Origin: Maylandia zebra
Taxonomy: Eukaryota > Chordata > Actinopteri > Cichliformes > Cichlidae
Length of the DNA stretch: 64,000 nucleotides
Assembly (NCBI RefSeq): GCF_041146795.1
Contig: NC_135167.1
Location: forward strand, 1,462,454 to 1,526,453
Direction of reading: 5' to 3'
In this document: positions 20,001 through 23,000 of the stretch, piece by piece
How the letters are laid out: every line of letters begins with the position of its first letter
How positions within the stretch are numbered: position 1 is the stretch's first letter
The notes under the pieces: generated by a model
Told to the model about the DNA's origin: nothing
What the model saw: only the letters and a program-made list of their open reading frames with translations
Databases searched by the model: none
Position numbers and translations under genes: made by a program

Positions 20001-23000
20001 GGTGAAGCAGGTGAGGTTCACTCCTGACAGTCAGCTAACACCCAGCAACAAACCCTCTTTGAATCTTTCATTTATTCTGCGATGGTCAGAGGAGACTGAG
20101 ATCTGCTCACACTCTCTCCATCTCACCGCTGGCGTTTGGATTTAACGCGACGACACAAACGATGTGGGTGAGCTGTGCTTCCTGAACAGCAGAGCACGTC
20201 CCAACAGGCTGACGGGTTTGGGATACCTGGCGATCTCCGGCAGCGTCCTCTTGATGCACTTCAGCGTCTTCTTCATGAGCGAGGAGTTCTGCAGGAGGAA
20301 GAACGGCCGCAGGAGCCGCCGCACCCTCAGTTTCTGAAGAAGGAAGGAACATCAACCCGGGATTTTATTTTGACAGGTTTACGTCCCCTGACCTTTGACC
20401 TTTCTGTATAGCAGAAAAATCAAACCTGGACTGATCCTCACCTCATCACACACCATGCTGACGGACAGCACCCAGTCCATGACAGAGATCAAAATGACCA
20501 CAGTGTAGCCAATCAGCCATTTGCTCTTCCCGAACTCCTCCCAGCCAATCAAATAGCTCTGCGGGAAAAAAACACATCCAGAACCGGATCGATGGGAACG
20601 TTTACTCTGATTTAATGGGTTTTCCCGGGTTTTCCCCGCTCACCTTAACAGCAACGTCTACAGAGAGGATGATGAGGCAGATCATCTCGATGCTCTCGGT
20701 GAGGCCGCAGGGAGGCTGCCAGGCTGGAGAGCGATGCCGGGGGTCCGAGGAGATGGAGAAGGAGGACGGGCGCTCCGCGAAGGCCAGCAGCAGCACCGCC
20801 GCAATGGTCAGACCCAAACCCCTGAAGGCGGAGAGAGAGGAGGGCTCTTTAAACTCGTACCACAGAAACACCGCGAGCGCTCTCAGGGCGACCTTTAAAC
20901 ATCATCTGCAGATTTTCATCAGTGTAGCTTTAAAGCACAAACACGGATCCTCAGCTCTTCCTACCCTGCACCCTCAGGCATGATCAGCATGCTTTAAAAT
21001 CCTCAGCCTGTCGCACTACAGGCAACAAGTTCTTCATTTGTGGCTGAGAGAAGCAGAAACATGACTTTTAATAAAAAGCTTGTTGGCTGCTAACCAATCA
21101 GCAGCAGCTGTTCTCAGGTTCCCACACGGCCTCATTCACTTGGAGATTTACTCATTTTTCCCTTTTTTGGATTAACTTTCTATTTTAACATTTGGTAAGG
21201 AGACCACAGGTGAACACTTCTGTTGTGTAGCAGCTTCGCCTGTAAACATGAACCCCCCTCCCCCCGCTGGGGTCACTGTGACTCTTTAAAGCGTCTCACA
21301 GAAAATTGATCTGAGGTCTCGACGCTCTCGCTCACAGCTCAGAATAGGACCCAGCTATTTTTAAAGCAGCGTCCACGGAAAGAGCCACGGCACTCAGAGC
21401 CAACGGGACATGTCTGTGACACTGTGGGACACCGTGGGACACTGTGTGACATGTCTGTGACACCGTGGGACATGTCTGTGACAGCGTGGGACATTGTGGA
21501 ACACCGTGGGACATTGTGGAACACCGTGGGACATTGTGGAACACCGTGGGACATGTCTGTGACAGCGTGGGACATGTCTGTGACACTGTGGGACACGTCT
21601 GTGACAGCGTGGGACACGTCTGTGACACTGTGGGACACCGTGGGACACTGTGTGACATGTCTGTGACACCGTCGGACATGTCTGTGACAGCGTGGGACAC
21701 TGTGGAACACCGTGGGACATGTCTGTGACAGCGTGGGACATGTCTGTGACACTGTGGGACACGTGGGACATGTCTGTGACAGCGTGGGACATGTCTGTGA
21801 CAGCGTGGGACACGTGGGACATGTCTGTGACAGCGTGGGACATGTCTGTGACACTGTGGGACACGTGGGACATGTCTGTGACAGCGTGTGACATGTCTGT
21901 GACAGCGTGGGACATGTCTGTGACAGCGTGGGACACCGTGGGACCCTGTGGGACACTGTGGGACATGTCTGTGACAGCGTGGGACACGTCTGTGACAGCG
22001 TGGGACATGTCTGTGACAGCGTGGGACATGTCTGTGACACTGTGGGACACGTGGGACATGTCTGTGACAGCGTGGGACACGACTGTGACAGCGTGGGACA
22101 TGTGGGACATGTCTGTGACAGCGTGGGACACGTCTGTGACACTATGGGACACGTCTGTGACACTGTGGGACACCGTGGGACCCTGTGGGACACTGTGGGA
22201 CATGTCTGTGACAGTGTGGGACACCGTGGGACATGTCTGTGACAGCGTGGGACATGTCTGTGACACTGTGGGACACCGTGGGACACTGTAAATAAGGAGC
22301 AGGTTTTACTGTAGGCAGAACTGCAGCTGGTTATAAGGCACAAAAAGGAACTCTGTTATTTCTGTTAATAATTGTTAAAGTCATTTTAATGCAGACAGAG
22401 CAGAACATGTTTTTTCATTCAGCCTCTCTTTGTTTTGTCTCGGCGCCAAAGTTACTGAGTGCAGAAAAACAGGAAGTGAAGAGAAGCTGATGCAGCATCT
22501 AAGTCGACTGTTTCGTGTCAGAGATATTTTAGTTTTCACACATGTAGAGACTTTGTTCAAAAACACACCGATCACACATTCTGAGCACCGACAGGTGAAG
22601 AGATCAACCTCCCACCTGTTGGTGGGCGGGGTCTATCAGGCAGCAGGTGGACATCTTGTCCTCAAAGTTGATGTTAGAGGAAGAAAAACGTGCGATTGTT
22701 ACGCTTTGAGCCAGTTTGACAGTTTGGGTCAGAGCATCTGCAAACCTGCAGCTCTGTGTTCCCGGCCTGCGGGGGGCGGGATCTGTCAGAGTGATCCAGG
22801 GAAAGAACGGGATGTGCTGGACACACAGTCCGATCCACCGAGGCCCCCCTCACAGCTTACAGGACTGACAGGACCTGCTGCAGATACCACAGCACGCCTG
22901 CAGGGGTCGAGCGGAGGCCACGCCTCACAGGTCAGAGGGACGGACGCAGTATTAGGCAGGTGGTCATAATGTTACGTCTGCTTGGTGTAAATTCTTGTTT

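Follow-up and report, generated by a model that had tools for sequence, protein, structure and literature searches.

A tpcn2 intron minisatellite with 21 copies of a p53-like half-site in the cichlid Maylandia zebra

Why should an intron of a two-pore channel gene hold a dense cluster of p53-like half-sites? We analysed a 64,000-nucleotide stretch of Maylandia zebra DNA (NC_135167.1, positions 1,462,454 to 1,526,453; hereafter the window, in whose coordinates all positions are given), for which a sequence-only reading had described a tandem array of about 21 half-sites in tpcn2 intron 3. That description held, as a pattern search counted 21 exact copies of the decamer GGACATGTCT spanning 21406..22259 (first start 21406, last start 22250), and the exon borders fit. 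We consider it very probable that the array is an ordinary minisatellite in which a p53-like half-site has been copied passively, and we infer that it has no p53 function.

The host gene occupies the minus strand; its inferred ATG is at 27207. Its N-terminal exons, joined by our own reading, match the TPC2 structure 6nq0, which we take to be that of human TPC2, with an E value of 9.8e-72 over query residues 27-228. Exon 3 (23950..24026, minus strand) was placed by its borders and by the protein match to solved TPC2, and exon 4 (20644..20821, minus strand, GLGLTIAAV...VDVAVK) has a lower border set by eye at an AAG/GTGAGC donor. Between these borders, intron 3 (20822..23949, minus strand) contains the array, which begins 4.9 kb into the gene from the ATG. 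Conceivably, part of the array could be spliced into some tpcn2 transcripts, as open minus-strand frames of 269, 303 and 338 codons run over it and, on the transcript strand, its upstream edge carries an acceptor-like CTCCTTATTTACAG. The open frames are, however, explained by a unit that lacks stops, the transcript strand of 21381-22330 holds no donor of the GTRAG form (the one form scored), and the exon 3-exon 4 join, by our own reading, is in frame and gapless against solved TPC2. We regard such splicing as extremely unlikely.

Other features of the surroundings include a 140-bp unit with long CA runs at 24814-25130 (2.3 copies, 98% matches; tpcn2 intron 1 by our own exon reading) and an interrupted CA-rich tract of 329 bp at 35798-36126. 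Minus-strand frames at 31552-35050 read like NAD synthetase 1 and presumably represent nadsyn1. The window as a whole contains no known RNA family or tRNA.

The array occupies 21405..22290 on the plus strand (886 bp). TRF called a period of 21 over 21405-22275, a period of 72 over 21418-22289 and a 51-bp period at 21696-22254, and cutting the array at every subunit start gave 86 subunits, of which 51 are 10 bp long, 30 are 11 bp and five are 9 bp. The commonest are GGGACATGTCT (20 copies), GTGACAGCGT (18) and GTGACACTGT (8), followed by GGGACACCGT and GGGACACTGT with six each, the last GGGACACTGT being counted with its flank trimmed. A 10-bp subunit comes next after an 11-bp subunit in 30 of 30 cases, which accounts for the 21-bp period, and a 9-bp subunit after two such 11+10 pairs accounts for the 51-bp period. 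Thus, the 21-bp unit described earlier survives as a period called by TRF, but the underlying structure is one of 9-, 10- and 11-bp subunits, which rules out a strict 21-bp repeat; a description as 86 subunits of these three lengths is preferable.

In minisatellites, a unit of at least about 10 bp is repeated head to tail, with blocks that recur. TRF and the parsing of this one sequence reveal just such a head-to-tail unit of about 10 bp, and in the string of subunits, inspected by eye, the order of blocks recurs: CDEIK occurs twice, JG three times consecutively, ABACH three times and DLEA twice. Ordered recurrence of this kind is expected from slippage or unequal exchange and therefore supports the minisatellite reading. 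Recurring blocks also record past rearrangement, which would suit another proposal, in which the locus is variable and any effect of the array comes from DNA structure or instability (folding of its G-rich strand, for example) and not from bound protein. A regular expression scan for quadruplex-type motifs returned two matches, one at 22167..22199 (plus strand) with four GGG runs and 7-base loops, a weak motif of this type, and an identical second at 21930-21962 (places from the subunit list). Both G3N7 runs conform to the usual pattern for quadruplexes, but there are just two and their loops are long, so a structural role would seem highly unlikely.

Searches for relatives of the array returned little. 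Neither blastn (E 1e-3) nor three unit patterns found similarity to it elsewhere in the window. Its flanks had no match elsewhere in the window, no inverted repeats were found within either flank, and left and right flanks shared matches of 9-13 bases alone (E 1.4 or worse); on the lack of flank inverted repeats and of flank matches elsewhere in the window, we rejected the array as part of a transposon. The 17-mer GGGACATGTCTGTGACA occurs as a single copy in each of two viral and eight prokaryote contig stretches, the latter being fewer than the roughly 30 that we estimate for 257 billion bases at equal base frequencies, and a search of viral contigs for TPC2 relatives, as would accompany a stray fish intron, found none.

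Is the number of half-sites itself surprising? The consensus RRRCWWGYYY has 33 matches in the whole window, 21 of them inside the array and every one of these GGACATGTCT. Shuffled windows (n=100) averaged 24.1 matches, and since 7 of the 100 reached at least 33, the window total is not unusual. The clustering is unusual and arises from the repeat: being copies of a single sequence, the 21 half-sites represent one origin and not 21 chance events. That one origin is itself improbable for any one repeat, as the chance of a half-site in a random 21-bp unit is 0.008 (0.8%) under the window's nearest-neighbour statistics and 0.001 (0.1%) under those of the array, figures to be read with the caveat that motif and repeat were both freely chosen in the sequence-only reading. 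This low chance per unit counts against passive copying, as does a somewhat higher identity within the decamer (see below).

Neighbouring half-sites had been said to lie mostly at multiples of the unit and hence on the same DNA face. The 20 distances are, in order, 62, 81, 21, 104, 41, 21, 30, 21, 30, 21, 30, 42, 51, 42, 21, 30, 51, 93, 31 and 21 (21 six times, 30 four times, 42 and 51 twice each; 62, 81, 104, 41, 93 and 31 once each), so just 8 of 20 equal 21 or 42 and "mostly" does not apply. The claim about the face fared better locally, in that neighbours keep approximate phase for a 10.5-bp turn (coherence 0.89; about 51 degrees or less, with a single exception of 103). This phase does not persist over the array as a whole, where absolute coherence is 0.06 at 10.5 bp and at most 0.38, at 10.2, among six periods tried. 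Regular helical phasing across the array is thereby ruled out, and the near-helical spacing of neighbours follows from every subunit being 9-11 bp long.

Pairs of half-sites bear more directly on p53 binding. With spacers of 0-13 bp, the array contains six perfect pairs, eight with one mismatch and three with two, all at spacer 11; the best at any other spacer is one pair with three mismatches (spacer 10), the remainder having at least four. Outside the array, the window lacks perfect pairs altogether and has two pairs with a single mismatch, at spacers 4 and 8. Under the 0-13 bp pair rule of PMC3386156, the array thus yields six perfect pairs, each with a spacer of 11, and it also has the character of a fuzzy tandem repeat, in that its tandem copies are imperfect and its perfect half-sites (21 exact) are clustered. 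Short-spacer p53 elements within the array are rejected, as its best pairs 0-2 bp apart have at least four mismatches.

These pairs are the core of the principal alternative, in which the array would be a functional p53-family response cluster that connects the lysosomal channel TPC2 with DNA damage; in a teleost, it would be the equivalent of the mouse fuzzy tandem repeats at Rbl2, Ncoa1 and Klhl26. With a gap of 11 bp between half-sites that share approximately one face, p53 dimers or tetramers could load next to each other, and the 21 exact half-sites and six perfect N11 pairs lie within 886 bp. Against this stands the absence of any pair with fewer than three mismatches at spacers 0-10. 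PMC2518093 proposes a spacer below 3 bp for p53 response elements of the short-spacer type and reports that, in the human p21-5' element, one added base lowered activity by 60% in yeast and by 45% in human cells; at spacers of at least 4, binding fell to the level of a single half-site, and a rotational effect was not seen, although activity was slightly greater at spacer 10 than at spacer 5. The same source nevertheless gives 4- and 6-fold induction by single half-sites in human cells, compared with 35-fold for the full site, which favours the alternative.

Zebrafish data point another way. According to PMC5007497, half-site pairs in a genome scan show spacer peaks at 0 and 11 bp, and ten of ten fragments responded to zebrafish p53 in reporters, with varied strength. 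Spacers that we computed from its table are 14 (hspa8), 2 (stat3), 0 (axin1), 11 (vcp), 13 (runx1, whose fragment contains four sites), 12 (dnajc9), 0 (traf4a), 1 (necab2), 2 (ttyh2l) and 6 (col4a5). The long-spacer elements of vcp, dnajc9, runx1 and hspa8 therefore belong among those that responded, and dnajc9, runx1 and hspa8 were bound in ChIP as well, along with traf4a, col4a5, necab2 and, slightly, axin1. ChIP was negative for stat3, ttyh2l and vcp, the last of which has exactly the 11-bp spacer of the array and so speaks against the alternative. The published data on long spacers, p21-5' versus zebrafish elements, thus disagree.

By the criterion of the sequence-only reading, a functional array should have a decamer that is better conserved than the remaining unit. 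Averaged across 30 such units (21 bp each), identity is 96.7% within the decamer and 93.0% outside it, an excess that is not significant (one-sided permutation p 0.24) and weakly counts against function. The most variable positions of the unit, 18 and 19 (63 and 67% identity), both fall outside the decamer, which leans towards the p53 reading. Exact decamers make up 21 of the 30, and the other nine (three TGACATGTCT, five GGACACGTCT, one GGACACGACT) all break the consensus, by changes of the first R to T, a core W to C or a Y to A. The least conserved decamer position lies in the CWWG core itself (T in 24, C in 6 of 30), where the commonest change occurs, and this too argues against a p53 cluster. 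Because the units are related by copying, the test is a weak one, and it gives no support for constraint. Poor conservation is, moreover, no proof against p53, since the p53-responsive fuzzy repeats of mouse are themselves poorly conserved in the account given by PMC3386156.

The T and C variants of the core differ by a CpG/TpG transition, a type that also makes up 5 of the 16 single-step differences separating subunit types. CACGT is present in four of the five 9-bp subunits, which suggests that the CACG form may be older than CATG. The array may have formed as follows. A subunit of 10 bp with the pattern GGGACAYYGT, lying inside the tpcn2 intron, would have been the building block, multiplied through slippage during replication, already offered as an alternative in the sequence-only reading, and through unequal exchange. 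A subunit of 11 bp, either GGGACACGTCT or GGGACATGTCT, would have arisen, probably once, and then been copied within blocks of 21 and 51 bp. The form with CATG, which fits the p53 half-site, would be one CpG-type transition away from the CACG form, presumably in that direction, and the number of half-sites would be a by-product of copy number.

If the array simply multiplies what it contains, other motifs should be enriched too. We counted 31 motifs, each given as a simple string and not as a matrix: ten occur at least 10 times in the array and 16 are at zero. Relative to the rest of the window, the fold enrichment per kb is 242 for GCGTGGG (17 copies), 125 for the p53 half-site (21), 113 for GGGACA (46) and 112 for TGTGACA (33). 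Amplification does not single out p53, although several strings were chosen after the unit had been seen, which makes the comparison illustrative and not a blind control.

Sites for TFEB had also been suggested, on the strength of CACGTG at subunit junctions. Four copies do occur, in GGGACACGTGGGACA, each where a 9-bp GGGACACGT subunit (four, plus strand, spanning 21756..22055 with starts 21756, 21807, 21858 and 22044 in the subunit list) joins the next, followed by GGG. The CLEAR/TFEB consensus is CACGTG with T/A flanks, GTCACGTGAC or TCAYGTG. The array contains no TCAYGTG and no GTCACGTGAC within two mismatches, and its CACGTG copies lack M-box flanks; the absence of flanked forms rules out CLEAR elements in the array, so the junction motif stands and its TFEB reading is not supported. 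In the wider window, exact GTCACGTGAC occurs three times (28346-28355, 30467-30476 and 54449-54458), where 0.12 were expected and none of 100 shuffles reached three, in a test run after the motif had been noticed. Two of these sites precede the inferred tpcn2 ATG by 1.1 and 3.3 kb. The sites at 28346 and at 54449 have 18 bases (AGAGTCACGTGACCCACA) in common and so may have arisen together. About 150 bp upstream of the ATG, at 27355-27365, is AGTCACGTGCT, which we take to be close to the MITF M-box/TFEB type and which would be a better candidate than the array for control by the TFEB family.

The zebrafish gene tpc3 we assume to encode a two-pore channel. In PMC5007497, tpc3 has a p53 pattern listed in intron 2-3 and is among 21 genes with an mRNA decrease under p53 morpholino. 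A literature search yielded few publications combining two-pore channel, p53 target and TPC2, and the start of the array 4.9 kb inside the gene also sits poorly with a p53 response cluster. That such repeats exist in mouse, and are poorly conserved there (PMC3386156), makes the p53 cluster a fair rival; we nonetheless judge it unlikely, as the sequence does not support a p53-mediated function. Likewise unlikely is the full version in which a teleost p53-family cluster, born by a CpG-type change in a minisatellite and amplified, would present 21 half-sites at a fish-usable 11-bp spacing and place the lysosomal channel gene tpcn2 under p53-family control in this lineage.

Binding of p53 to the array, if it occurs, would carry over to fish the idea that p53 networks are rewired between species by fast-evolving tandem repeats, and would help to test whether fish p53 uses the 11-bp spacer at which the zebrafish scan of PMC5007497 shows a peak. 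As it stands, it illustrates a repeat multiplying whatever motif it contains. Units near 10 bp in length, higher-order blocks and a mixture of variants throughout the array characterize ordinary vertebrate minisatellites; the tpcn2 array shares these traits and additionally carries a p53-like decamer. The zebrafish transposon EnSpmN6_DR (PMC3485254) is likewise a fish repeat bearing p53 motifs, but it is a dispersed transposon with tested activity, whereas the tpcn2 array has neither flank inverted repeats nor copies elsewhere in the window. Alu p53 sites, attributed to CpG deamination by Zemojtel et al. 2009 as cited in PMC3032802, resemble the array in having CACG and CATG half-site forms and a CpG-type transition within a repeat; the array differs in being a tandem repeat with putative sites and a presumed direction of change. 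Comparable too are the mouse genes Rbl2, Ncoa1 and Klhl26, p53 targets whose p53 elements lie in tandem repeats that are imperfect and hold clusters of half-sites, many of which are perfect; in two of the three genes they are intronic, as in the fish. By the account in PMC3386156, the mouse repeats have reporter and ChIP evidence and lie no more than about 3.4 kb from the transcription start; Rbl2 has seven half-sites, six of them perfect, in an intronic cluster of 117 bp, against 886 bp in the fish, where perfect pairs occur at 11-bp spacers alone. The fish tpcn2 intron thus holds a minisatellite with p53-like half-sites, and similar repeats in mice do respond to p53 (PMC3386156).
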